Assembly (NCBI GenBank): GCA_021651055.1 | Contig: JAJHOH010000001.1 | Span: 1,798,001-1,862,000 of the forward strand | Direction: 5' to 3' | DNA from: Candidatus Manganitrophus morganii | GTDB taxonomy: Bacteria > Nitrospirota > Nitrospiria > SBBL01 > Manganitrophaceae | DNA length: 64,000 nucleotides | Part shown: positions 1 to 13,160 of the stretch, one piece after another | Layout: each line of letters begins with the position of its first letter | How positions within the stretch are numbered: the first letter of the stretch is position 1 | Made by a program: the position numbers and the translations under genes | The notes under the pieces: generated by a model | Told to the model about the DNA's origin: nothing | Seen by the model: only the letters and a program-made list of their open reading frames with translations | The model's database searches: none

Positions 1-33
1 CGCTGATTGCGCAATTTTTGTGGAAGGATCGAG

Positions 34-2262
34 ATGAACGCCGAAAAAACCATCAGACCGGGGCGGAACTGTTATCGCATCGCCCAAGCTGACCGGGTCG
101 ATCTCCTGGTCGACGCCGCCGCTTATTACAGGGCTCTTTACCACGCGATTCTCCAGGCGCAAGAGCGCCTTGTTTTCTTAGGATGGCAATTCGACAGCCG
201 TGTCTCCCTCCTTCGCGGAAAGGAGGCCGACCGGGCCCGTTATCCGGTTCAGTTCCTTCCTCTTCTGCAAAAAATCACCGAAGAGCGCCCCCATCTCCAG
301 GTCTACATCTTGGCCTGGGATCACTCCATTGTCTTCTCCCCCGAACGGGAATGGTTTCAGTCGTACCGGTTTCAACAAGGGACGGGAGATCAGATCCATT
401 TTGTCTTCGACCATTTCCATCCTGCGGGAGGAAGCCACCACCAAAAAATCGTTCTGGTAGACGGGGTCGCCGGCTTCTGCGGCGGGCTCGATATCTGCGG
501 CGATCGATGGGACACTCCGCAGCATCGCCGCCAGGATCCCCTTCGGAAAAACGAGGACGGCACCCCGTACAGCCTTTTTCATGACGTTCAGATCGCCGTT
601 CAGGGAGAAGCGGTCCCGGTCTTGGAAGAGATCTTTCTCGACCGATGGGCAGCCGCCACCGGAGAGCGCCTCGCTCCCGTCCGGCCCGATCGCATACGCC
701 GGTTCGATCTTTCCCATACCTTGCGCCTCTCCGGCGGGCCGGCCTCAATCTCAAGAACCGTTCCGGCGGGAACCTGCGGCCGGGAAACGCCGGTGCAAGA
801 GATCGCTCAGCTCTACGATGACGCGATCGCTTCCGCCGAGCGCTTGATCTTGATCGAAAACCAATACTTCACTTCGCGCCGCGTTTTCGATGCCCTCCAT
901 AAGCGGATCTCCGACACAAGCCGCCCCGGCATCGAGGTGGTTGTGATCTTGCCCCAGGCCGCACAAAACTGGAAGGAAGAGCTGGCGATCGGATTCGAGC
1001 AACGGCGCATGCTTCAACGACTAGAGACGGCCGCAAAGGCCAATCATTGCCCGCTCGGAATCTATACCCCGATTAAAACCGGGAACCCTCCCCTTCCGCC
1101 GACGCCGATTTACGTTCACAGCAAGGTGCTGGTGATCGACGACCGGATCCTCTCGATCGGATCGGCCAATACCAGCAACCGGAGTTTGGGGCTCGACACC
1201 GAGTGCAACATCAATATTGAAGCCGACGGGAATCAACGACGCCGGGAAATCGCGATGGTCTGTTATACCCTGTTGGGGGAGCATCTCGAACAGCCGGCGG
1301 AGGCAGTGGAATCATTCATTCAACAAAAACGGGGGTGGGTGACCGCCCTGGATGCCCTCTCCGGACAGAGCGGGCGGCTCCACAAGCTCAACGATACGTT
1401 TCCTGAAACCTGGATCGACCAGGTTCTGCCCGAGGGGATCTGCTTTGATCCGGAATCGCCGCTCAGTTCGGAAGATCTCTTTGAGAAACTCTTTTTCCCG
1501 CCGATCCCATCCGTTCAAGAAGAGGAAGCCCTGGAAGAAAAAGAGCAGGGAGAGCCTCAGAAGCCGGAGGCGCATCCGGAAGGTTCCAAAAAGAGGACTT
1601 TTCTAAAGGGAATTCCGTTGTTTCTCCTCCCCCTGATCGGCATTATCCTCTACTTTTTTTTGGAAAAGAAAGGAATTGATCTTCGCTCCTGGGTGACCAC
1701 CCTCGACGAAGCACGGGCCTCTCACTGGACCATTCCCCTCTTTATGATCGGAACCGTGATCGCAAGTGTGATCTCCTTTCCGATCACTTTCTTTTTAGTC
1801 CTGGGGGGGATCTTGTTCGGGGCGTATTGGGGGACGCTGCTGAATTGGACGGCGGCCCTCGCCGGCGCCACCGTCTCCTACTTCCTCGGCCTCTACCTCG
1901 GGAGGCCGCTCTTTCGCTTCGGCCAGAAGCGGGCCCCCGCGGCGGCCGACTGGATCAAACAGAAGGGATTCTGGGCGATCTTGATCCTCCGGGTCATCGG
2001 CGTTTTTCCATTTACCGTCGTCAATTTTATCGCCGGCGCCAGCAAGATCCGTCTCTCCAATTATCTTCTCGCCACAGCGCTGGGGATGCTTCCGGGAACC
2101 TTTCTGATCTCCTACTTCTCCGACGCCATTCTGCAAGGGACCGTCGACTTTAAAACGAAAAGCTCCCAGCTCCTCTGGGGCCTCTCGTTCGTTCTCCTTC
2201 TCTGGCTCGGCTCCGCCTTCATGAAGAGATGGTGGCTGCGCCGGCAGGAAGCCCTTTCCTAA
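34..2262 (+). CDS. Phospholipase D-like protein fused to a VTT (SNARE-associated/DedA-like) membrane domain
   Basis: 742 aa. The N-terminal half has two PLD catalytic HKD motifs, HQKIVLVD near residue 135 and HSKVLVID near residue 361, so both halves of a phosphodiesterase/transphosphatidylase active site are present. A charged Glu/Lys-rich linker (about 490-520) leads into a C-terminal hydrophobic region of about 200 residues that looks like a VTT domain (FPITFFLVLGGILFGAYWG; RVIGVFPFTVVNFIAG). The likely role is phospholipid head-group cleavage or exchange at the inner membrane, possibly with lipid scrambling or transport by the VTT part; the substrate is unknown. The ATG at 34 is chosen over an upstream in-frame TTG because GGAAGG lies 6 nt before it. 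It converges with the next gene after 21 nt. Confidence 0.85.
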   Translation: MNAEKTIRPGRNCYRIAQADRVDLLVDAAAYYRALYHAILQAQERLVFLGWQFDSRVSLLRGKEADRARYPVQFLPLLQKITEERPHLQVYILAWDHSIVFSPEREWFQSYRFQQGTGDQIHFVFDHFHPAGGSHHQKIVLVDGVAGFCGGLDICGDRWDTPQHRRQDPLRKNEDGTPYSLFHDVQIAVQGEAVPVLEEIFLDRWAAATGERLAPVRPDRIRRFDLSHTLRLSGGPASISRTVPAGTCGRETPVQEIAQLYDDAIASAERLILIENQYFTSRRVFDALHKRISDTSRPGIEVVVILPQAAQNWKEELAIGFEQRRMLQRLETAAKANHCPLGIYTPIKTGNPPLPPTPIYVHSKVLVIDDRILSIGSANTSNRSLGLDTECNINIEADGNQRRREIAMVCYTLLGEHLEQPAEAVESFIQQKRGWVTALDALSGQSGRLHKLNDTFPETWIDQVLPEGICFDPESPLSSEDLFEKLFFPPIPSVQEEEALEEKEQGEPQKPEAHPEGSKKRTFLKGIPLFLLPLIGIILYFFLEKKGIDLRSWVTTLDEARASHWTIPLFMIGTVIASVISFPITFFLVLGGILFGAYWGTLLNWTAALAGATVSYFLGLYLGRPLFRFGQKRAPAAADWIKQKGFWAILILRVIGVFPFTVVNFIAGASKIRLSNYLLATALGMLPGTFLISYFSDAILQGTVDFKTKSSQLLWGLSFVLLLWLGSAFMKRWWLRRQEALS

Positions 2263-2283
2263 TCGATCGATGCGGAAGAAACG

Positions 2284-3165
2284 TTATCTGAGGTAGGTCG
2301 GCAAGATCTCTTCCAGCCCCTGAAACGAGAGGCCCAGCTCCTTCGCGGCGGCACTCTCACTGCAAACGTTGTCTTCCTGAAGCATCGTCAGTTGATCGCG
2401 GGTGAGCGGGGGGCGGGGGAAGATCCGCTCGGCGAGGGCGGCGGGACCTTTGAGCGCCCAGATCGGAAGATGGACTTTCGGGCGGGAGATTTTCTTGATC
2501 CGGAGGATCAGACCGATAAGGTCATTGAGAGTGTAAACACGCGGACCGCAGAGCTCGTAGCGCTTTCCGTAAGCAATCTGGTTATGGAGCGATTGGACGA
2601 AAGCCTCGGCCACATCCTCCACCCAGACCGGCTGAAATCGATTTTCTCCAGGCCCGACGACCGGGACCACCGGCGAGTAGGAAGCGATCTTCGCAAGAAG
2701 ATTGATCGACCGGTCTTCCCGGCCGAAGACCAACGAGGGTCTGAAAACGGTCGCATCAAGCGGTTCGGCGCGGACGAGTTCTTCCGCCTGCCACTTGGTC
2801 CGGTGATAACGGCTCGTCGCCTTCGGACCGGTTCCGAGGGCGCTCATGTGGAGAAGGCGGCGCACCCCGGCCTGCCTCATCGCCTCCACCACATTTCGCG
2901 TTCCATCGACATGCAGTTTCTCGAATGTCTCTCCGCCCGGCTCGACCAGAATGCCGACGAGATGGATGACCGCATCGACCCCCTTCGCCCCGCGGAGCAG
3001 ACTCTCCCGCGAGCCGATCTCTCCGGGGATCCATTCGATTTTTTCATCCGGGATGAAGCGGCGCCGCTCGCTCCGATAAAGCACCCGGACCCGCTCTCCC
3101 TGAGAAAGGAGGCGGCGGACGATGCTCCGGCCGACAAAGCCGGTCCCGCCGGTCACTAGAACCAT
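2284..3165 (-). CDS. NAD(P)-binding epimerase-like protein, complex I NDUFA9-subunit family
   Basis: 293 aa, extended SDR/atypical-SDR fold. The Rossmann motif VTGGTGFVGRS is at the N-terminus and an SDR-type YHRTK lies near residue 118. The family includes the accessory complex-I subunit NDUFA9 and bacterial proteins acting on quinone, sugar or isoprenoid substrates; the substrate here cannot be read from sequence. ATG with GGAG 7 nt upstream. It probably forms an operon with the DUF2892 gene 49 nt upstream on the same strand. Confidence 0.85.
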   Translation of the reverse strand: MVLVTGGTGFVGRSIVRRLLSQGERVRVLYRSERRRFIPDEKIEWIPGEIGSRESLLRGAKGVDAVIHLVGILVEPGGETFEKLHVDGTRNVVEAMRQAGVRRLLHMSALGTGPKATSRYHRTKWQAEELVRAEPLDATVFRPSLVFGREDRSINLLAKIASYSPVVPVVGPGENRFQPVWVEDVAEAFVQSLHNQIAYGKRYELCGPRVYTLNDLIGLILRIKKISRPKVHLPIWALKGPAALAERIFPRPPLTRDQLTMLQEDNVCSESAAAKELGLSFQGLEEILPTYLR

Positions 3166-3214
3166 ACGGTTTCTCCGAGCCCGCTCTGCGAGCCTGCTTC
3201 AATGGGTCGACGGA

Positions 3215-3463
3215 TCATCTCGCAAATGGGAGAAGCCTTTTCCACTTCGGGTAGGTCGAGACCCCCAACAGATGATTCAGCGGGCTGAACCGGAAGAAAG
3301 CGGTGAGAAGCCCATCGAGTCCGATCATCCACATTGCCGTCCGCGCCCAACGGCTCTTCCCCGAAAAGAGGGCGAGGACAGGGAAGAGAAGACCAATTGT
3401 ATACCGAACCCCGCGATCCCAACCACCCACGTTATACGTCTTATAACCTTTATACGCTCTCAT
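3215..3463 (-). CDS. DUF2892 (YgaP-like) small membrane protein
   Basis: 82 aa with two hydrophobic stretches: a first around VRYTIGLLFPVLALFSG and a second around MWMIGLDGLLTAFFRFSP, ending in a PLNHLLG motif. This arrangement (an arginine-led first helix and a C-terminal NxLLGxxTC-like ending) is typical of DUF2892/YgaP transmembrane domains, which often carry a Cys near the end; here the site reads GVSTYPKW, with no Cys. Function unknown. Strong SD (GGAGG, 6 nt before ATG). First gene of a two-gene minus-strand unit. Confidence 0.75.
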   Translation of the reverse strand: MRAYKGYKTYNVGGWDRGVRYTIGLLFPVLALFSGKSRWARTAMWMIGLDGLLTAFFRFSPLNHLLGVSTYPKWKRLLPFAR

Positions 3464-3658
3464 GATGATCCTCCATGGTAAGGGTTACAACAATCCGGGT
3501 TATCTCACAGAATTTACTCCATCATACCGTCTCTCTTTCCGTCGATACAATCCCCTTTTTGGAGGAGACCCCTATTCCCCTTTTGGAGAGGGGTTCGAGG
3601 GGCTCACGCGTCATCTCTGAATTCGGGTATACTTATCTTTGACCCGAGGCCGCAATTG
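3464..3658. other. Divergent intergenic region with short direct repeats
   Basis: No supportable gene. A pyrimidine-rich segment contains two near copies of TCCCCTTTT(T)GGAG (about 3551-3564 and 3575-3587). A mature promoter for the rightward operon follows at 3659-3687. Confidence 0.5.
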
Positions 3659-3687
3659 TTGACTTCCCCCGTATGCTGGCCTATACT
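3659..3687 (+). promoter_or_regulatory. Sigma-70-type promoter of the APC/USP/RCK operon
   Basis: -35 TTGACT at 3659-3664, a 17-nt spacer and -10 TATACT at 3682-3687. It is very close to consensus and points at the permease gene. The expected start near 3694 leaves a leader of about 145 nt. Confidence 0.7.
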
Positions 3688-3693
3688 ATCGTC

Positions 3694-3838
3694 CTTTATA
3701 CGGGGAAGCCGGGTCGCTTCTTTGGATCGCGGGAACCAAATCGCCCAAGCAGAATGTCGCGTTTTCCTTATGGATAAAGAGACAGACCCAATCAAGAGAG
3801 CGGCCGCGGCCGTTTCTCCGGCGATTAGAGAATAGACG
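3694..3838 (+). promoter_or_regulatory. Long structured 5' leader, possible cis-regulatory RNA
   Basis: About 145 nt between the inferred start and the permease ATG with no ORF in a useful frame. A nested stem is visible: GGG-t-CG pairs with CGCCC and encloses TTTGG/CCAAA with the loop ATCGCGGGAA. A perfect palindrome CGGCCGCGGCCG follows near 3802. The string GGGAACCAAAT recalls a loop of c-di-AMP (ydaO-type) riboswitches, but the conserved CAGCUAAC segment of that class is not found, so the class is unassigned. Confidence 0.35.
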
Positions 3839-5407
3839 ATGGCATCTGAAGTTCGAGCGCCGTCCGCCGCGCTGCCCGGAACCCCTGTTGAGCTTCGAAG
3901 GGATGTTTCCATCTGGGGCTCATTCACCTGGGGCTACGCCGACGTCGGCGCCGATGTTTATGTGGCGCTCGGTCTGGTCATGGGCGCCGCCCATGGGGCG
4001 ACGCCGCTTGCCTTCGCCGCCGCCGGTTTCGTTTACATCTTAATCGGCTTCGCCTATACCGAACTTGCCTCCGCCTATCCGGTGGCGGGGGGAGGCCAAT
4101 ACTACACGACGCGGGGGCTGGGCGATATCTGGGGGTTGATCGCCGGCGCCGCGCTGCTGCTCGATTACACCATCTGCATTTCGCTCTTCGCAACCGCTTC
4201 CGCCGGGTATATCAACTTCTTCTTCCCGGCCATCCGCGAATTCGCAATCGATATCGGCCCTTTCCAAGGAATCAATCTGATCTGGGCGGCCGAATCGCTC
4301 TTCCTGATCGTCCTTCTGATGATTCTCAATATCCGGGGGATTCGAGAATCTTCTCTCTTCAATTCGCTCATCGGCGGCCTGGATATGGTCCTGGAAACGA
4401 TCATTATCGTTTTCGGTTTTCTCTTTGCCTGGAAACCGGAGATGGTCGTCTTTCAATTCAAAACTGAATTCCCTTCGACGGAGCAATTCTTTTACGCCGT
4501 CTCGGTCGCCATTATCTCTTACGTCGGATTGGAATCGGTCTCGCAGGCGGCGCAGGAGACCCGCCGTCCCGCGACGATTATTCCGAGAACATCGGTCTCA
4601 TTAATCTGTGTCGTCCTCCTCTTCGCGATGGCCTTTCCGATCCTGGCCCTGGGGGTCCTTCCCTGGCAGGCCCTGGCCGAGCGGGAGTCCGACCCGGTGG
4701 CGGTCTTGGCCAGCGCTATTCCCTATGTCGGTTTTCTGGCCGGTCATGCCGCCGCGGTCCTCGGTGCCACGATCGTCCTCATTTCGGCCAACACGGGGGT
4801 GATGGGGGCCTCCCGACTGAGCTACAGCATGAGCGAGAGCCACCTCTTGAGCCCTTGGTTCAGCGCGGTCCATCCGAAATTCCGGACCCCCGTGCGGGCG
4901 GTCGTCTTCTTCTCGGTTGTGGCGGCGGCTCAGGTGATCTTCAGCTTTCTCACCGGCCCCCACGCCATGGATACGATGGTCAATATGTATGCCTTCGGCG
5001 CGACGCTCGCCTATTTTCTGAGCTTCATCGCCCTGATCGCGCTCCGGATCAAAGACCCCTATACCCCGCGGCCCTATCGAATGCCGTTTAATATTAAGTT
5101 CAAAGGGATCTATATTCCGATCCTCGGCATCGTCGGCGCCTTTGCGACCCTGGCGATGATGGGGGTGGTGCTCTGGACGCATGCCCTCGGACGGGTCGCC
5201 GGTCCCGGTTGGGTCCTCCTCTGGCTTGCGGTTTATCTCTGGTATCGGTGGAAGAACAGGCACCCCCTCTTTTCCAACATTCCACGCGACTGGGAGAAGG
5301 AGCAGATCGCGATTCTGACCTCTGCGGAGGAATTCGATCTCCTGGAGCAATACAAGCATGCCTTGGCGGAACGGAATAAGAAAGAGGCCAAACATGCTTC
5401 ACAATAA
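3839..5407 (+). CDS. APC-superfamily permease, KimA-like candidate cation or amino-acid importer
   Basis: 522 aa with about 12 hydrophobic helices. The first helix reads GYADVGADVY (residues 32-41) instead of the GSG motif of classical amino-acid permeases, so it carries two Asp residues. The YPVAGGG, LLLDYTICIS and LNIRGIRES motifs in helices 2-6 resemble, by memory, the K+ importer KimA more than typical amino-acid permeases. The C-terminal tail after residue 460 is hydrophilic and short, with no USP domain. It is the first gene of a five-gene run with a small membrane protein, a USP and two RCK proteins, which argues for potassium or a nucleotide-gated substrate. An ordinary amino-acid permease remains possible. 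Confidence 0.8.
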   Translation: MASEVRAPSAALPGTPVELRRDVSIWGSFTWGYADVGADVYVALGLVMGAAHGATPLAFAAAGFVYILIGFAYTELASAYPVAGGGQYYTTRGLGDIWGLIAGAALLLDYTICISLFATASAGYINFFFPAIREFAIDIGPFQGINLIWAAESLFLIVLLMILNIRGIRESSLFNSLIGGLDMVLETIIIVFGFLFAWKPEMVVFQFKTEFPSTEQFFYAVSVAIISYVGLESVSQAAQETRRPATIIPRTSVSLICVVLLFAMAFPILALGVLPWQALAERESDPVAVLASAIPYVGFLAGHAAAVLGATIVLISANTGVMGASRLSYSMSESHLLSPWFSAVHPKFRTPVRAVVFFSVVAAAQVIFSFLTGPHAMDTMVNMYAFGATLAYFLSFIALIALRIKDPYTPRPYRMPFNIKFKGIYIPILGIVGAFATLAMMGVVLWTHALGRVAGPGWVLLWLAVYLWYRWKNRHPLFSNIPRDWEKEQIAILTSAEEFDLLEQYKHALAERNKKEAKHASQ

Positions 5408-5639
5408 AGAGCACATCATGACGACCCTTCGATCGTTGTCTCTTCGAGACAAGGTCCTGATGATTAATATGTTCCTCTACTTCGCCGTCGGCGGCGCAAT
5501 CCTCTACCGCGCCTTCTTCCGTCACGCCTCCTGGCCGGCCTATTTGATCGGATCTCTTTTTCTGCTGATCGGGAGTTATCGTTTTTATCTCATCTATAAA
5601 GCATTGTCGAAAGGGGGAGGGGAGGTTGCGGAGAGATGA
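5394..5639 (+). CDS. Small two-helix membrane protein of unknown function
   Basis: 81 aa. It has hydrophobic stretches around MINMFLYFAVGGAILY and WPAYLIGSLFLLIGSYRF, separated by a short basic loop. The ATG at 5394 overlaps the end of the permease and has AGAGG 6 nt upstream; an alternative ATG is at 5418. It overlaps the next gene by 4 nt (ATGA). The tight coupling on both sides suggests a small subunit or assembly partner of the permease. I recognise no family. Confidence 0.7.
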   Translation: MLHNKEHIMTTLRSLSLRDKVLMINMFLYFAVGGAILYRAFFRHASWPAYLIGSLFLLIGSYRFYLIYKALSKGGGEVAER

Positions 5640-6214
5640 TCGAGCTGATCGATCAGATCAACCCCCTGGGAGGGGTAATCGCCCTTTTCTTTGTTGTTTC
5701 GCTCATCTCGATCCTCTGGTGGATGCTTCATCCTCCGGATTACATCCCGGCGGCCGCCGCAAAAGCGCGCCACTCGGTTTTTGCCATCAAAAAGATCTTG
5801 GTCCCGACCGTCGGTCTCCCCTATGCGGAACGGGGGGTCGAATTGGCCTGCCGACTCGGCTCCGAACAGGGGGCGGAGATCCTCTTGACCTATGTGGTGG
5901 AAGTCCCCCGCACGATGCCGCTCGGGATCCCCCTCCCCGACGCGGAGCAGGAGGGAAACGAAGCGTTGGAGCGGGCCTGCTCCATCGTCAAGCTCCATGG
6001 GCTTCCCTCCCAGAAGATTCTCCAGCGGGCCCGTCTGGCGGGGGAGGAGATCGCCCGGATTGCGCGGGATCGGGATGTCGATCTGATCATCTTGGGAATC
6101 CGGTCCGAGCCGGGCTTACGGGACGCCATCTTGGGGAGAACATCGGACATCATCCTTCGGCATTCTCCCTGCGAGGTGCTCATTGATAAGTTGCCGAAGG
6201 GGGCGCAAGAGTAG
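5636..6214 (+). CDS. Universal stress protein with N-terminal membrane anchor
   Basis: 192 aa. Residues 12-30 are hydrophobic (a transmembrane anchor); the rest from about residue 50 is a single UspA fold (IKKILVPTVGLPYAERG at the start, HSPCEVLI at the end). The ATP-loop region GLRDAILGRTSD is partly conserved. UspA domains bind ATP/AMP, and some bind cyclic nucleotides. A membrane-tethered Usp directly after a permease is consistent with a cytoplasmic regulatory subunit. Start ATGA overlaps the upstream stop. Confidence 0.85.
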   Translation: MIELIDQINPLGGVIALFFVVSLISILWWMLHPPDYIPAAAAKARHSVFAIKKILVPTVGLPYAERGVELACRLGSEQGAEILLTYVVEVPRTMPLGIPLPDAEQEGNEALERACSIVKLHGLPSQKILQRARLAGEEIARIARDRDVDLIILGIRSEPGLRDAILGRTSDIILRHSPCEVLIDKLPKGAQE

Positions 6215-6328
6215 CGGCGCACATAACGCACCGATCACATGATGAGGCCGGGTCGTGATCGGGGACTCCCCTTTGAACTTCCCGGGCCAAACGATTATAC
6301 TGTAGACAAATTGACCCTTGGGGAAACG

Positions 6329-6733
6329 ATGCATATTGTGATTCTTGGCTCCGGAAGGCTCGGGTCGCGTCTGGCGAATGCCCTGGTTCAAAAAGGGCAT
6401 AAAATCACCATTGTCGATGCGGAAGAGACAAAATTCAAAAACCTCGAAGAACATGAAAACATCCAGCGGGTCGGCGGGAATATTTTTAATGAAGAAACGG
6501 CCGACCTGGTCTTCGCGGAACCGGTCGACGTCTTCATCGCCGTGACCGGAAGTGATAATATCAATTTGATGGTCTCTCAAGCGATGCAGAAGAAGTATAA
6601 GATCCCAAAGGTCCTCATCCGGGTCTTCGATCCGACCCTCTCTTCGGTCTATCGCGATCTCGGCCTTGAGACGGTCTGCCCCACAAATTTCGCCCTACAA
6701 GAAATGTTGAAGATGTTGGAGAAGGGGGTCTAA
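6329..6733 (+). CDS. TrkA/RCK N-terminal-domain protein (RCK_N only)
   Basis: 134 aa. It starts with the Rossmann motif MHIVILGSGRLGSRLA and continues as a single RCK_N (TrkA-N) domain to the end, with no RCK_C. These domains bind NAD(H) or ATP/ADP and gate K+ transporters as ring-shaped assemblies. The ATG at 6329 is used because the Rossmann strand begins immediately there. The next RCK gene starts 3 nt after the stop, suggesting a hetero-oligomer. About 115 nt separate it from the Usp gene. Confidence 0.85.
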   Translation: MHIVILGSGRLGSRLANALVQKGHKITIVDAEETKFKNLEEHENIQRVGGNIFNEETADLVFAEPVDVFIAVTGSDNINLMVSQAMQKKYKIPKVLIRVFDPTLSSVYRDLGLETVCPTNFALQEMLKMLEKGV

Positions 6734-6736
6734 CCG

Positions 6737-7390
6737 GTGTACATCATTATCGTCGGCGGGGGAAAGGTCGGATATAACCTAACGAAGCTGCTCCTGGCGG
6801 AAGAACATGAGGTCCTGCTGATCGAAAAAGACAAGACGAAAACCGCCGGCCTGGCGAGAGAGTTCGGGGAGTCGTTGATGGAGGGAAACGGCTCCCGCGT
6901 CAGCATTCTTCGAGAAGCGGGGGCCAATCGCGCCGACGTTCTCGTGGCGGTCACCGGGACCGATGAGGATAACCTCGTCATCTGCCAGGTCGCCAAGGCG
7001 GTTTTTAAATGCCCGCGCACCATCGCCCGCGTGAACGACCCGGGGAACGAATCGCTTTTTTCCACACTGGGGATCGATGCCACCGTCAGCTCGACCCGCC
7101 TGATCGATGCGTTGATTGAAGAACAGGTGAAGGCGGAGGATATGGTGATCCCGCTGGTAACCCTCCGCGCGGGGAATGTCGAGATCATCGAGGTCGACCT
7201 CTCCCGCTCCTCCGGAATGATGGGGAAGAAGATCCGAGAGATCCACCTCCCCGAGGGGGCGATCTTCATTTCAATTCTCCGGGGGGACGAAGTCGTCATT
7301 CCGAAAGGAGACACCGAGCTTATTCCCGGCGACAAAGTGGTCGCGCTCGTCAGGAAAGAGGCGGAGCAGGCGCTCCGAGAGATGCTCTGA
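6737..7390 (+). CDS. TrkA-family RCK protein (RCK_N + RCK_C)
   Basis: 217 aa from GTG. RCK_N (1-135) begins MYIIIVGGGKVGYNL and has a conserved EKD acidic end of beta-2 near residue 31. RCK_C (about 140-217) reads IHLPEGAIFISILRG...IPKGDTELIPGDKVVAL, the domain that binds c-di-AMP or ions in some KtrA/CpaA proteins. With the preceding RCK_N-only protein and the upstream permease it makes a likely nucleotide-gated transport complex. No TrkH/KtrB pore is in the window, so the APC permease is the obvious partner. Confidence 0.87.
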   Translation: MYIIIVGGGKVGYNLTKLLLAEEHEVLLIEKDKTKTAGLAREFGESLMEGNGSRVSILREAGANRADVLVAVTGTDEDNLVICQVAKAVFKCPRTIARVNDPGNESLFSTLGIDATVSSTRLIDALIEEQVKAEDMVIPLVTLRAGNVEIIEVDLSRSSGMMGKKIREIHLPEGAIFISILRGDEVVIPKGDTELIPGDKVVALVRKEAEQALREML

Positions 7391-7473
7391 CGCCCGTTTC
7401 TCCATTCGGTTCCGCCCGCTTCTCCTCCATGCACCCCTTTTGCTCTTCCGCTTTTTTCACGGCCCGATTCTCC

Positions 7474-7503
7474 TTGACAGGAGGAGGAGGGATTCGCTAC
7501 CAT
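7474..7503 (+). promoter_or_regulatory. Putative promoter of rpiB-glyA-nrdR
   Basis: TTGACA at 7474-7479, 18-nt spacer, TACCAT at 7498-7503, 24 nt before the rpiB start. The spacer is a repeated GGA tract. Confidence 0.45.
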
Positions 7504-7527
7504 CCCAGGACTTGATAGAGACCTATA

Positions 7528-7977
7528 ATGAAGCTTGCGATCGCCTCAGATCATGCCGGTTTCGGGCTGAAAAATCGGATCCTCCGGTACCTGTCCGAAA
7601 AAAAAGTGGACGCCGTCGATTTCGGCGCCGACGGTCGCGATTCGGTCGACTACCCCGATTATGCCATCCAGGTGGCCGAATCGGTTTCGAAGGGGACGCT
7701 CGACCGCGGCATTCTCATCTGCGGAACCGGCATCGGCATGTCGATTACGGCCAACAAGTTTCCCGGCGTCCGCGCGGCACTCTGCCATAACGCCGTCACC
7801 GCAGAGGCGAGCCGGCGTCACAACGATGCAAACGTCCTTGTTCTGGGAGAGCGGGTGCTCGACGAGGAGACGGCGGTCCAAATCGTCCGGATCTGGCTCG
7901 AAACCGATTTCGAAGCGGGACGCCATCAACGACGACTAGATAAAATTCGCGCCATCGAAAAGGCCCATCCCGATTGA
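7528..7977 (+). CDS. rpiB: Ribose-5-phosphate isomerase B
   Basis: 149 aa, normal RpiB length. SDHAGF at the N-terminus and the phosphate loop with catalytic Cys, ILICGTGIGMSI, followed by AALCHN (conserved His), identify it. It interconverts ribose-5-P and ribulose-5-P in the pentose phosphate pathway (some homologues act on allose-6-P). It leads the rpiB-glyA-nrdR cluster, an order common in many bacteria that links pentose/one-carbon supply to nucleotide synthesis. Confidence 0.95.
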   Translation: MKLAIASDHAGFGLKNRILRYLSEKKVDAVDFGADGRDSVDYPDYAIQVAESVSKGTLDRGILICGTGIGMSITANKFPGVRAALCHNAVTAEASRRHNDANVLVLGERVLDEETAVQIVRIWLETDFEAGRHQRRLDKIRAIEKAHPD

Positions 7978-8034
7978 TCGGCCCAAGAAGGAAACGGTTC
8001 ATCCACAATAGAAAATAGCGTTGAGGATTTCGAG

Positions 8035-9279
8035 ATGAGTGATCAAAAAGATTTCAGCTTAAAAGCGATCGACCCGGAGGTGGAACAGGCGATCCGCCAG
8101 GAGGAAAAGCGCGAGGAGGAGAAGCTTATCCTCATCGCCTCCGAGAATTACGTCAGCCGCGCGGTCCTGGAAGCGCAGGGATCGATCATGACCAACAAAT
8201 ATGCCGAGGGCTACCCCGGACGGCGCTATTACGGCGGCTGCCAATATGTCGATGTGGTCGAATCGCTCGCGATCGAGCGGGCCAAGCAGATCTTCGGGGC
8301 CGAACATGTCAACGTCCAGCCCCACTCCGGCTCGCAGGCTAACATGGCGGTCTACTTCTCCGTCCTCAAACCGGGCGATACGATTCTCGGGATGAACCTG
8401 GCCCACGGGGGACACCTCACCCACGGAAGCCCGGTCAATTTCTCCGGGATGCTCTATAAAGTGGTCTCCTATGGCGTTCGGAAAGAGACCGGCCGGATCG
8501 ATTATGATGAAGTTGCGGCGACCGCCGAGCGGGAACGTCCCAAGATGATCGTTGTCGGCGCGTCGGCCTATTCCCGCATCTTGGATTTTCCGAAATTCAA
8601 AGAGATCGCCGACCGAATCGGGGCCTATCTGATGGTCGACATGGCCCACATCGCCGGTCTGGTGGCGGCGAAGGTCCACCCCTCGCCGGTTCCCTATGCC
8701 GATTTCGTGACGACCACCACCCATAAGACCCTGCGCGGCCCGCGCGGCGGGATGATTCTCTCTCTTCAGAAACACGCCAAGATCATCGACAAAACGATTT
8801 TCCCCGGCATCCAGGGGGGGCCGCTGATGCATGTCATCGCGGCCAAGGCGGTCGCACTGAAAGAAGCGCTCCGTCCGGAGTTCGTCACTTATCAAAAGCA
8901 GATCGTCGCCAATGCCGCCGCCCTTGCAAATGGATTGATCTCCCGCGGCTATCAGATCGTCTCGGGGGGAACCGACAATCACCTGATGCTTGTCGATTTA
9001 ACCAAGCAGGGAATTACCGGAAAAGAGGCGGAAGATGCGCTGGAAGCGGCGGGGATCACCGTAAACAAGAATGCCGTCCCCTTTGATGAGCGCCCTCCGG
9101 CCCAGACAAGCGGCATCCGATTGGGAACGCCGAACGTCACCAACCGCGGGATGAAAGAGAAAGAGATGGATGAAATCGCCTCCTTCATCGATACCGTCGT
9201 TCGCCATCGGAAGGACGAGCGGGTCCTGGAAGAGGTTCGACGACAAGTTCAAGCCGTCTGTAAGCGATTCCCGCACTAA
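8035..9279 (+). CDS. glyA: Serine hydroxymethyltransferase
   Basis: 414 aa, full length. The PLP-lysine motif [14 protein letters not shown], the substrate-loop segment [14 protein letters not shown] and the C-terminal [11 protein letters not shown] match GlyA. It converts serine + THF to glycine + 5,10-methylene-THF in the cytoplasm, the main one-carbon source for thymidylate, purines and the methionine synthase found at 56.8 kb. SD GAGG precedes the ATG. It lies 57 nt after rpiB and 41 nt before nrdR. Confidence 0.97.
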
Positions 9280-9320
9280 ACAGCGATCCATACATACTGG
9301 ACTTCAATAAGGCTCTCATC

Positions 9321-9818
9321 GTGCAATGTCCATTTTGCAGCCATCTGGAAGATAAGGTGGTCGACTCCCGCCTCAGCAAAGAGGGAGAGGTCATCCGCCG
9401 GCGCCGGGAATGCCTCCATTGCCAGCGGCGCTTCACCACCTACGAACGGGTGGAGGAGATCTTTCCGATGGTGATCAAAAAGGACGGCCGGCGCGAGCCG
9501 TTCGATCGCCATAAAATTTTTTCAGGACTCAAGAAGGCTTGCGAGAAGCGGCCGGTCAGCGTCGATCTCCTCGAAGCGGTCGTCACCCGGATCGAAAAAA
9601 AAATCCAGGAGATGGGAGAGACCGAAATCGAAAGCCGGGTCGTCGGCGAGGAGGTCATGAGGCAATTGCACGCGATCGACCAGGTCGCCTATGTCCGCTT
9701 CGCTTCGGTCTACCGGGAGTTCAAGGATGTCAATCAGTTTATGTCGGAGTTGAAGGCGCTTCTCGGAGAGCAGAGCCAGGAAAAGGCGGCCAACGGGGAG
9801 ATCAAAAACAAGAAGTAA
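9321..9818 (+). CDS. nrdR: Transcriptional repressor NrdR
   Basis: 165 aa from GTG. The N-terminal zinc ribbon CPFCSHLED...[13 protein letters not shown] (residues 3-46) is followed by an ATP-cone domain (about 49-139; [16 protein letters not shown]). NrdR senses ATP/dATP and represses ribonucleotide reductase genes. The C-terminal 25 residues are a charged extension. The gene is closed by a perfect intrinsic terminator 17 nt after the stop. Confidence 0.96.
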
Positions 9819-9834
9819 CCGGTGAAAACAAAAC

Positions 9835-9868
9835 AAAAAAGGGATGGAGAGAACTCCATCCCTTTTTT
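9835..9868. terminator. Bidirectional intrinsic terminator between nrdR and hppA
   Basis: A perfect 15-bp stem (AAAAAAGGGATGGAG paired with its complement, AGAA loop) with an A tract on one side and T tract on the other. It can terminate both nrdR (+) and hppA (-). Confidence 0.92.
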
Positions 9869-9889
9869 GTTTCTCTTGATTCTCGTCTT

Positions 9890-11935
9890 TTAAGCAAACA
9901 GCAACACGCCGATCAGAACGGCCACGAGGTTGATTACCTTGATCATCGGGTTGATCGCCGGGCCGGCCGTGTCTTTGTATGGATCGCCGACTGTATCGCC
10001 GGTGACCGCTGCCTGATGGGCCGGACTTTTCTTCCCGCCGTGGTGGCCCTCTTCGATATATTTCTTTGCGTTGTCCCACGCCGCCCCGCCCGAGGTCATC
10101 GAGATGGCGACGAAAAGACCGGTGACAATGCTCCCGACCAAGACCCCGCCGAGCGCCTTCGGACCGAGGATCACACCGACGATCAAGGGGGCCAGCACCG
10201 GAATCAGCGACGGGACCATCATCTTTTGAAGCGCAGCGATCGTCACGATATCGACGCACCGGCCGTAATCGGGCTTGCCGGTCCCCTCCATAATCCCCTT
10301 GATCTCCCTAAACTGTCGGCGAACCTCTTCGACGATCGAACCGGCCGCCTCTCCGACCGCCTTCATCAAATAAGCGGCAAAGAGAAACGGGAGCATCCCG
10401 CCGATAAAGAGGCCGACCAGGACCAGCGGGTCGGAGAGATCAAAAACCATCGCCGTCCCCCCCTTGGAAACCGAGCGGGTATATTCGGAGAAAAGAACGA
10501 TCGCGGCCAATCCGGCCGATCCGATGGCATACCCTTTCGTCACCGCCTTGGTGGTGTTGCCGACAGCGTCGAGCGGGTCGGTCACATCGCGAACCTCTTT
10601 CCCCATGTTCGCCATCTCGGCGATCCCCCCGGCGTTGTCGGTGATCGGGCCGAAGGAGTCGATCGCCACGACGATCCCCGCCATCGTCAACATCGCTTCC
10701 GCCGCGATCGCCACGCCGAAGAGGCCGGCCAGCGAATAGCTGGCGAGAATCGCTCCGGCGATCACGAGCACCGGAAGGGCGGTCGACTGGAGAGAGACCG
10801 CCAGCCCGGCGATGATATTGGTGCCGTGGCCGGTCACCGACGCCCGCGCGATCTCTTGAACCGGGCTGAACTTTTTGGCGGTGTAATAATCGGTGATCAC
10901 CACCAGGGCAAGGGTCACCCCCAATCCGACCAGCGCCGTCAAATAATAGTTGATCACCGGGATGCCGCCGACCCCGTCCATGAGCCAAGCGGTCACCGGG
11001 TAGAAGGCGATCGCAGAGAGGATGCCGGTCGCGGCGAATCCTTTGTAAAGAGCCGGCATAATGCCCCCCCCCGGGCCCAGCTTCACAAACCAGCTTCCGA
11101 TGATCGTCATCAAAATCGCCACCCCGCCGAGGACCAGCGGGAAGAGAAGGGCATTCTTCGCTTCGGGGTAGAGAAGGTGGGCGAGCGCCATCGTCGCGAC
11201 CGTCGTCACGGCATAGGTCTCGAAGAGATCGGCCGCCATGCCGGCGCAGTCGCCGACATTGTCGCCGACGTTATCGGCGATCACCGCCGGGTTGCGCGGA
11301 TCGTCTTCCGGAATCCCCGCCTCTACCTTTCCGACGAGATCGGCCCCGACATCGGCCGCTTTCGTATAGATTCCCCCACCGACCCGGGCAAAGAGGGAGA
11401 TTAAGCTCCCCCCCAATCCCAACGAGAGAAGGGCCGGAATGGTTTTCTCTTCCCCGGCGATCGCGGAGGCGACGGCGTAGAATCCGGTCACGGCCAGAAG
11501 ACCCAAACTGATCAGGAGGAGCCCGGTGACCGCTCCCCCTTTGAAAGCGACCTGCAGCGCGGCATTCATTCCCTGATGGGCCGCCTGGGCCGTCCGTGCA
11601 TTGGCCCGCACCGCGACCATCATCCCGACGTAACCGGAGATCCCGGAGGCGACCCCGCCGATCAGAAAACCGGTGGCGGTCAGCAGGCCGAAATGCTCCG
11701 ACCAAATCCCGGAAACCCAGAGAAGAACAAAAAGGACCGCCGCGACAATGGAGATCGTTTTAAATTGCCGGATCATATACGCCTGGGCCCCTTCGTGGAT
11801 CGCGGCCTGAATTTTTCTCATCTCAGCGGTTCCCGCATCGAGTCTCATCACCCAGAAGGAAAGGTAGAGGGCGTAGGCAATCCCCACGCCGGCGCAGATG
11901 AGCGAGAAGAGTATGACGAACGATGTGTTCTCCAT
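9890..11935 (-). CDS. hppA: K+-independent membrane H+-translocating pyrophosphatase
   Basis: 681 aa, about 16 helices. The substrate-binding segments [13 protein letters not shown] and [18 protein letters not shown] are intact. The subtype-determining site reads [10 protein letters not shown]: Lys at the position that is Ala in K+-dependent enzymes, with Thr three residues later, which marks the K+-independent class (H+-pumping). It couples pyrophosphate hydrolysis to proton export, saving energy in biosynthesis. SD AGGAG lies 11 nt before ATG, a little far. Divergent from the two-component pair. Confidence 0.96.
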
Positions 11936-11990
11936 TGTGATCTGTTCTCCTATCTATATAGTCATGAGATTCCGGGCGTCAAAACCCCAC

Positions 11991-12020
11991 ATTTTACGGA
12001 GAGATCTCATTGTTTGTCAA
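11991..12020 (-). promoter_or_regulatory. Promoter of hppA
   Basis: On the minus strand: TTGACA (12020-12015), 18-nt spacer, TAAAAT (11996-11991), giving a leader of about 50 nt to the hppA ATG. Confidence 0.6.
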
Positions 12021-12038
12021 GGCATATTCTCCTCTACC

Positions 12039-12067
12039 TTGTCAGTCAAAACGAATTCGGATAGAAT
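12039..12067 (+). promoter_or_regulatory. Promoter of the Rossmann-kinase/NarL regulator pair
   Basis: TTGTCA (12039-12044), 17-nt spacer, TAGAAT (12062-12067), 55 nt before the kinase GTG. Its -35 lies 18 nt from that of the hppA promoter, so the two could share control. Confidence 0.6.
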
Positions 12068-12122
12068 GAGGCCGTTCCGGGATCGGGATCGAGATCGATC
12101 GTATTCAACAGGGGGGAGAAGC

Positions 12123-13160
12123 GTGACGAATGTGGCGATCATCGGCGGAGGACGCGGCGGGACCTCTCTGATTGAAATCTTCTACAACGATCCGCTGGTT
12201 CGAATCGTCGGGGTGGCCGATATTGACAAAAACGCCCCCGGGATTCGCCTCGCCCGGAAGTTGAAAATCCCTGTCACGCTCGATTATCAAAAACTCCTCA
12301 AGTCAAAAAAGGTCGACCTGGTCATCGATGTCACCGGAGATAAAGCCGTCGAGGAGATCCTTCTCACCTCGCGCCGGCCGGGGGTGGCGGTCATCGGCGG
12401 GCCCTCGGCGATGTTCATGTGGCAGCTGATCGAGGAGCGGATCAAAAGCAAAGAAGAGATCGAACGACACCTGCTGGAGTACCAATCGCTTTATCGGCTC
12501 TATGTCAAAGAGGTGGAGCTTGCGATTGCAGAAGAGCGGACGCGGATCGCATGCGATATCCACGATGGTCTCGTTCAGACCCTCGTCGGGCTGAACTACC
12601 GCCTCGATTATTGCGCCGACCAGCTCAATAAAAACCCCGCCCTGACCCTTCAATCGATCCAGGAGACCAAGGCGCTTCTCAAAGAGGCGATCTCCGAAGC
12701 AAGGGAGGTCATCTTCAATCTCCGTCCGATTTACCTCGACCGCGCCGGGCTTCTCCCCTCGGTGAAAAAATACCTCAAAACCTACGAACGGCAATACCAG
12801 ATCGAGACCCATTTGGAAAACGCCGGGAATGAAGGGACGGTCCCCTTGCAGGCGAAGATTTTTATTTTCCGGATCGTTCAAGAGGCGCTGGCCAACATTC
12901 AACGGCACGCTCGGGCAAAACAGGTCTGGATCAAGCTCGACATTCAACCGAGGCGGTTGACCGCCGCCATCATCGACGACGGGGTCGGATTTGATTTCAG
13001 GCCCAACGAAGTCGATCGGACCGACTCAAACTCCTTCGGCCTCAAGTCGATTATGGAACGGGCGCGCCTCTTGGGGGGGAAAGCGGAAATCCTCAGCCGC
13101 AAGGGGCAAGGGACCCAGGTCCGGATCGAGGTTCCCCTTTCGAAGGAGAAAAGGGGATGA
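12123..13160 (+). CDS. NarL-type sensor histidine kinase with N-terminal NAD(P)-binding Rossmann domain
   Basis: 345 aa from GTG (GGGGAG SD). Residues 1-110 form a dinucleotide-binding fold like DHDP-reductase/Gfo-Idh N-domains: VTNVAIIGGGRGGTSLIEIF, then VGVADIDKNAPGIRLA (acidic end of beta-2) and KKVDLVIDVTG. A short coiled-coil joins it to a HisKA_3 dimerisation/phosphoacceptor segment (RIACDIHDGLVQTLVG, His near residue 146) and a HATPase_c domain (VQEALANIQRH; DDGVGFDF; FGLKSIMERA). There is no membrane segment, so it is a cytosolic sensor, plausibly of NAD(P)(H) redox state or a bound metabolite. The overlapping next gene is its response regulator. Confidence 0.88.
   Translation: MTNVAIIGGGRGGTSLIEIFYNDPLVRIVGVADIDKNAPGIRLARKLKIPVTLDYQKLLKSKKVDLVIDVTGDKAVEEILLTSRRPGVAVIGGPSAMFMWQLIEERIKSKEEIERHLLEYQSLYRLYVKEVELAIAEERTRIACDIHDGLVQTLVGLNYRLDYCADQLNKNPALTLQSIQETKALLKEAISEAREVIFNLRPIYLDRAGLLPSVKKYLKTYERQYQIETHLENAGNEGTVPLQAKIFIFRIVQEALANIQRHARAKQVWIKLDIQPRRLTAAIIDDGVGFDFRPNEVDRTDSNSFGLKSIMERARLLGGKAEILSRKGQGTQVRIEVPLSKEKRG

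Follow-up and report, generated by a model that had tools for sequence, protein, structure and literature searches.

Potassium uptake transporters of bacteria are usually grouped in five classes (PMC6488665). In one of these, the Trk system of Thermotoga maritima, two adjacent regulator proteins, TM1088A (TrkA_N domain only) and TM1088B (TrkA_N and TrkA_C; PDB 3l4b), form a gating ring, crystallised as an octamer, which has the TrkH protein TM1089 as its membrane partner and which, according to complementation tests, cells need in order to survive at low K+ (PMC4380455). In another, KimA, Asp36 and Glu233 are essential for K+ transport and Tyr377 strongly affects affinity (PMC6994465), while the cytosolic domain of the protein has been described as PPAT-like (PMC10284832). 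Here we analyse a 64,000-nucleotide stretch of Candidatus Manganitrophus morganii DNA (contig JAJHOH010000001.1, positions 1,798,001 to 1,862,000; hereafter the window), which comes from a closed genome of 4.29 Mb and holds a cluster that resembles both systems. Its five genes, all on the plus strand and spanning positions 3839-7390, encode an APC-superfamily permease, a small membrane protein, a Usp protein and two RCK proteins, RCK1 and RCK2. We found no description of this five-gene set in the open-access literature. In our view the cluster is likely to be a K+ uptake system in which an APC permease of the LeuT fold works under a two-subunit Trk-type RCK ring and replaces the TrkH/KtrB channel; potassium uptake as such is well supported. 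The system shares its type of regulator with Trk and resembles KUP at the presumed substrate site, yet it is a member of neither, since it has no TrkH and its permease does not pass as a KUP protein by sequence.

The RCK pair matches the subunits of a Trk gating ring

RCK2 matches TM1088B (3l4b_C) over its full length (E 2.4e-37) and RCK1 matches TM1088A (3l4b_A; E 7.8e-17). By domain content and sequence, the pair is the counterpart of TM1088A/TM1088B, with the same adjacency of a TrkA_N-only protein and a TrkA_N/TrkA_C protein. In Thermotoga, however, the ring has a TrkH partner (PMC4380455), whereas here the two genes accompany an APC permease, a Usp protein and a small membrane protein.

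As the genome does encode a TrkH, one might suppose that the RCK pair serves this distant protein and that its place beside the permease is incidental. We consider such an arrangement highly improbable: the single TrkH directly adjoins a TrkA of its own, TrkH/KtrB is missing from 36 of 44 further genomes that carry the cluster (four of these 36 being at least 94% complete), and the gene order is conserved across phyla. With no TrkH partner in most carriers, the RCK pair probably acts on the permease. The initial annotation of this stretch had pointed out that no TrkH lies in the cluster, which is correct, and had reasoned that an RCK pair left without a pore would have to gate the permease, a proposal to which the absences in the further carriers lend support.

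The presumed site of the permease carries KUP-type residues

Helix 1 of the permease reads WGYADVGADVY, so that the acidic pair and the missing GSG motif noted in the initial annotation are both confirmed (GTG is missing as well). The first acidic residue, Asp35, is conserved in 73 of 73 relatives and the second, Asp39, in 71 of 73; the search pattern fixed the helix-1 motif in part of this set, and among the 45 relatives that do not match the pattern there the counts are 45/45 and 43/45, respectively. Asp39 occupies the place of the last Gly of the GSG/GTG motif of amino-acid permeases, which has become GAD in 71 of the 73 relatives and GAN in two. GAD would set a negative charge at the point of carboxylate binding and, judged by these residues, the site is not that of an amino-acid permease.

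Most of the remaining residues of note have equivalents in the known K+ carriers. Asp35 aligns with Asp23 of Kup and, via Kup, with Asp36 of KimA, while in the permease-KimA alignment Asp109-Tyr110 corresponds to Asp117-Tyr118, Glu232 to Glu233, the helix-8 motif SANTG (residues 316-320) to AANTG, and Tyr384 in helix 10 to Tyr377. Both Glu232 and Tyr384 are invariant in the 73 relatives, and the SANTG-type helix 8 is invariant or nearly so. Tyr384 alone proves little, since the reference amino-acid exporter YjeH carries the same helix-10 Tyr.

Asp35 and Asp39, joined in most relatives by Asp113, give the presumed site more acidic residues than KimA has. This would also suit RCK-controlled uptake of some other cation, be it ammonium, a polyamine or a divalent metal, and NRAMP metal transporters, which share the fold, likewise use a helix-1 Asp. 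Such a substrate seems improbable to us, as K+ is indicated both by the c-di-AMP riboswitch and by the importer census described below.

The five-gene order is conserved across about ten phyla

Nine further genomes of the class have an orthologue of the permease, and the five-gene order is kept wherever the contig is long enough. In the window the unit adjoins rpiB, lying upstream of it, whereas in two genomes of another family it stands between glyA and nrdR; the unit has thus moved as a block. A scan of 84,980 species genomes for relatives of the permease yielded 80 loci with 51-99% identity in about ten phyla (Nitrospirota, Zixiibacteriota, Chloroflexota, Bacillota, Acidobacteriota, Armatimonadota, Methylomirabilota, Myxococcota and others). 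The arrangement is not due to chance, as its order is conserved both in the class and across these phyla, and the five genes do stay together in relatives, which the initial annotation had named as a test of its reading.

Gene content was counted at the 63 loci with at least 2.6 kb of downstream DNA. Usp, RCK1 and RCK2 are all present at 33 of them, a single longer RCK open reading frame (ORF) at six, Usp only at 13, and neither at 11; in total, Usp is found at 51 loci and RCKs at 39. The one single RCK ORF that was checked (L125) contains two TrkA_N domains and one TrkA_C domain and is a natural RCK1-RCK2 fusion.

Some loci deviate from the common layout in other ways. Two Zixiibacteriota loci (L069, 5868-9113, and L073, 4208-7533) have a tandem permease pair before the Usp and RCK genes, with one riboswitch preceding the first copy. 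At three others (L058, L061 and L065, approximately 6000-9935) a lone permease without Usp and RCK lies tail to tail with a large gene, which encodes an H+-pyrophosphatase in L058, where it was checked, and a fluoride riboswitch is found on the opposite strand near position 3950. In isolate GAC4 (L040 / L052) the matches to RCK2, rpiB, PLD-VTT, kdpA and trkH are fragmented across frames, which would seem to reflect errors of sequencing and not the decay of these genes. A search for plasmid copies of the permease gave just distant amino-acid-type permeases, and no RCK neighbour is annotated for the KimA-like genes on plasmids of Rhodococcus, Streptomyces and Leptolinea.

Other K+ importers are missing from many carriers

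We compared 45 carriers of the RCK-bearing cluster with 31 genomes of the same class without the cluster, counting TrkH, KdpA, Kup and KimA and leaving out K+ channels. TrkH is present in 9 of the carriers, KdpA in 13, Kup in 2 and a KimA-like protein in 5. None of the four importers is found in 24 of 45 carriers as against 1 of 31 non-carriers (Fisher p 3e-6, the related genomes not being independent). When TrkH, Kup and KimA are considered, all three are missing from 31 of 45 carriers and from 1 of 31 controls; within the class alone the corresponding figures are 4 of 10 and 1 of 31 (p 0.009).

A c-di-AMP riboswitch precedes the permease at some loci

An Rfam scan revealed a cyclic di-AMP (c-di-AMP) riboswitch at 11 of 76 loci, in Nitrospirota, Zixiibacteriota, Bacillota, Methylomirabilota and Acidobacteriota. 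At each it lies 55-275 nt upstream of the permease and on the same strand (71-98 bits), and such a riboswitch occurs nowhere else in these loci. Riboswitches of this class have been shown or predicted to precede ktr, trk, kdp, kup and kimA (PMC6488665). Taken with the importer census and the KUP-type site residues, the riboswitch supports as probable the earlier proposal that the permease imports K+.

A further suggestion of the initial annotation, that the RCK_C domain binds c-di-AMP, found no support. The signature used, (I/L)(I/L)X2DX1RX5N(I/L)(I/L), as quoted in PMC10117811, is present in the C-domain of 0 of 45 RCK2 proteins.

As to the nucleotide itself, the genome encodes near 1.54 Mb (L132, 1450-2733, minus strand) a protein with a DacZ-like diadenylate cyclase domain, beside an ORF resembling a DHH-type phosphoesterase, which suggests that c-di-AMP is probably made in this organism.

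Permease family, fold and the points against a potassium importer

Several observations weigh against the idea of a K+ importer, and the first of them concerns the family of the permease. Its sequence is more similar to those of CAT/ApcT amino-acid permeases than to those of KimA/KUP. Its family profile matches the solved structure of GkApcT at 1e-30 and that of KimA at 2.4e-6, the HH scores are 252 and 132, respectively, and CAT/ApcT (TIGR00909, PDB 5oqt) is the best sequence and profile match over the whole permease length. No match to PF02705 (KUP) was found in the permease by Pfam. On these grounds, and because the permeases form a clade separate from KimA, membership in KimA/KUP was rejected. 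The term 'KimA-type' used for the permease in the initial annotation could not be upheld, as the profile comparison set there as the refuting test favours CAT/ApcT; the part of the likeness that stands consists of the key KUP-site residues and of the structural alignments.

The AlphaFold2 (AF2) model of the permease (mean predicted local distance difference test score, pLDDT, 90.6) has LeuT-type structural matches. It aligns with KimA at Z 41.3 (root-mean-square deviation, rmsd, 2.4 over 394) and with ApcT at Z 40.1 (rmsd 2.5 over 415), which is close to a tie, and Foldseek places CAT structures on top. The fold leaves the substrate undecided. In comparison with KimA/KUP, the system shares the APC fold, the site equivalents listed above and, at some loci, the c-di-AMP riboswitch, and differs in the sequence affinity of the permease, in changes at Thr121 and Ser125, in its separate RCK and Usp proteins and in the lack of a fused PPAT-like domain: a KimA-like C-terminal cytosolic domain was looked for and none was found, the protein stopping at 522 aa, soon after the membrane part. 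Nor does the permease agree fully with CAT/ApcT. Its match to TIGR00909 reaches 167 bits against a cut-off of 557, every other NCBIfam amino-acid transporter model is also below cut-off, and, unlike CAT/ApcT, it lacks GSG/GTG and has different site motifs in helices 8 and 10.

That the top family scores are those of amino-acid permeases would agree with an osmoregulated importer of an amino acid or another organic solute, the activity of which would be set by K+ or nucleotide status via the RCK pair and Usp. In addition, c-di-AMP riboswitches stand before amino-acid transporters too (PMC7266159), and Haloarcula has an APC-Usp gene pair with an amino-acid-type permease and without RCK genes. 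We nonetheless regard an organic solute as a rather unlikely substrate, given the replacement of the carboxylate-binding GSG/GTG by GAD or GAN, the KimA-like motifs of helices 8 and 10, the fact that TM1088-type RCK rings are known for K+ systems, and the lack of other K+ importers in many carriers.

The remaining points against K+ import by an RCK-gated permease are as follows. Within the site, Thr121 of KimA is not kept (it is Asp in most relatives and Cys in the window), Ser125 is replaced by Phe, and, in an alignment of helix 1 anchored at Asp35, Tyr41 falls short of the position of KimA Tyr43 by one residue. No riboswitch was found upstream of the window permease on scanning positions 2000 to 8000 with a loose threshold. 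This genome also has TrkH and KdpA. As for the census, the carriers span many phyla and the controls one class; completeness figures exist for 10 of the 45 carriers and are lacking for 35, and among the seven carriers known to be at least 90% complete one (G021, 96%) is without all four importers. We found no case in the literature of an RCK ring on an APC permease with biochemical proof. Finally, RCK genes are missing at 24 of the 63 loci. In the tree all 73 permeases form one clade, apart from KimA and GkApcT, and the RCK-less ones are scattered within it, so that they more probably reflect gene loss or duplicate copies than a group of their own; several RCK-less copies are, going by record names, second copies in genomes with a full cluster (L057/L059, L058/L131 and L065/L126). 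When the RCK-less relatives were searched for alternative partner genes, the neighbours looked at were unrelated.

The Usp protein and the small membrane protein

The AF2 model of the Usp protein (pLDDT 87.5) has its best structural matches in TeaD (Z 19.6) and other Usp proteins (Z 17-20). At Z 13.6, the c-di-AMP-binding Usp domain of KdpD (PMC6488665) resembles it less closely. Since the KimA domain is PPAT-like and the protein encoded here matches true Usp structures, it is not simply the KimA domain split off, and the likeness to the cytosolic domain of KimA drawn in the initial annotation is not supported in that simple form. In Halomonas elongata, TeaD is an ATP-binding Usp whose gene lies beside TeaABC and which modulates that transporter (PMC9006882), an arrangement similar to the Usp gene beside a transporter here. 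TeaABC, however, is a TRAP transporter for ectoine, and the structural match covers the soluble domain only, the membrane anchor being an addition of the protein described here.

No Pfam family over cut-off and no NCBIfam match was obtained for the small protein. A small hydrophobic ORF is nevertheless present in the permease-Usp gap at 47 of 48 loci, by a loose criterion, and the sequences, which have a common Gly/Arg pattern, are plainly alike. The cluster provides a first context for this small membrane protein outside all described families.

Proposed working of the system

The analysis above establishes the order and domain content of the genes, the conserved site residues, the position of the riboswitch and the absence of TrkH and other importers from many carriers; the substrate, H+ coupling, complex formation, gating and ligands of the system are what we infer, as follows. 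The permease would carry K+ inward, probably together with H+, via an acidic/polar site in helices 1, 3, 6, 8 and 10, and the coupling to H+ would probably run through Glu232. RCK1 and RCK2 would assemble like TM1088A/TM1088B, bind nucleotide, and act from the cytosolic side to open or close the permease. A second nucleotide input would come from the membrane-anchored Usp, acting as TeaD does on TeaABC, and the two-helix small protein would be a subunit with a role in structure or coupling. The c-di-AMP riboswitch would control the synthesis of the system in those lineages that have it.

With little better than even confidence, we go further and suggest that the cluster represents one more class of bacterial K+ uptake system, additional to Kdp, Trk, Ktr, Kup and KimA: an APC carrier of the amino-acid branch gated by an RCK ring, with Usp and a two-helix subunit, on which many uncultured bacteria would mainly depend for K+ import. 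If true, this would couple a LeuT-fold carrier to an RCK ring of the sort that channels and antiporters have, and would account for the K+ supply of many bacteria in which every known importer seems to be lacking. It would also offer a possible reading for 'Trk' systems of two TrkA proteins without a pore. A possible parallel, drawn from published descriptions, is formed in Mycobacterium tuberculosis by CeoB/CeoC and Rv2690c, which we take to be an APC permease. CeoB and CeoC, both TrkA proteins, are described as a K+ uptake system for which no TrkH is named (PMC6375644, PMC13163235), and mutants of ceoB and the adjacent Rv2690c have the same survival phenotype (PMC12216072). Streptomyces venezuelae has a KimA-like gene whose number is next to that of an RCK_C gene (Vnz_27465 and Vnz_27460, respectively; PMC10117811).

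Layout of the locus and neighbouring genes

The coordinates bear out the rightward run of five genes reported in the initial annotation, together with its tight coupling from permease to Usp and between the RCK genes. Position 3659, given there as the start of the run, is that of a promoter-like sequence, and the first gene begins at 3839 (Table 1). When the ATG at 5394 is taken as the start of the small-protein gene, the overlap with the permease gene is 14 nt; an alternative ATG is at 5418. The small-protein and Usp genes are joined by an ATGA overlap, a gap of 114 nt separates Usp from RCK1, and the spacing between RCK1 and RCK2 is 3 nt.

Table 1. Features of the five-gene locus, in window coordinates
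Feature	Position	Strand	Evidence
Promoter-like sequence 5' of the permease gene	3659..3687	+	TTGACT-17-TATACT; 10/12 consensus match only
APC-superfamily permease, 522 aa, inferred K+ importer subunit	3839..5407	+	Pfam AA_permease_2, 147 bits; AF2 model; site residues aligned with KimA/Kup
Small protein, two predicted membrane helices	5394..5639 (start 5394 or 5418)	+	Hydrophobic ORF in 47/48 loci
Usp domain (residues 51-183) behind an N-terminal membrane helix (13-31)	5636..6214	+	Pfam Usp, 77.5 bits; hydropathy; AF2 model
RCK1, TrkA_N domain only, 134 aa	6329..6733	+	Pfam TrkA_N, 66 bits, without TrkA_C; TM1088A match
RCK2, TrkA_N and TrkA_C, 217 aa, GTG start	6737..7390	+	Pfam TrkA_N, 97 bits, and TrkA_C, 52 bits; TM1088B match

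A snoRNA match between window positions 2000 and 8000 was below its cut-off and was taken as a chance match. Elsewhere in the window, positions 7-2262 (plus strand) encode phospholipase-D-like domains and a VTT membrane domain in one protein, and positions 11898-13160 (plus strand) encode a histidine kinase (HisKA_3, HATPase) with an N-terminal domain like that of NAD-binding oxidoreductases, possibly a sensor.

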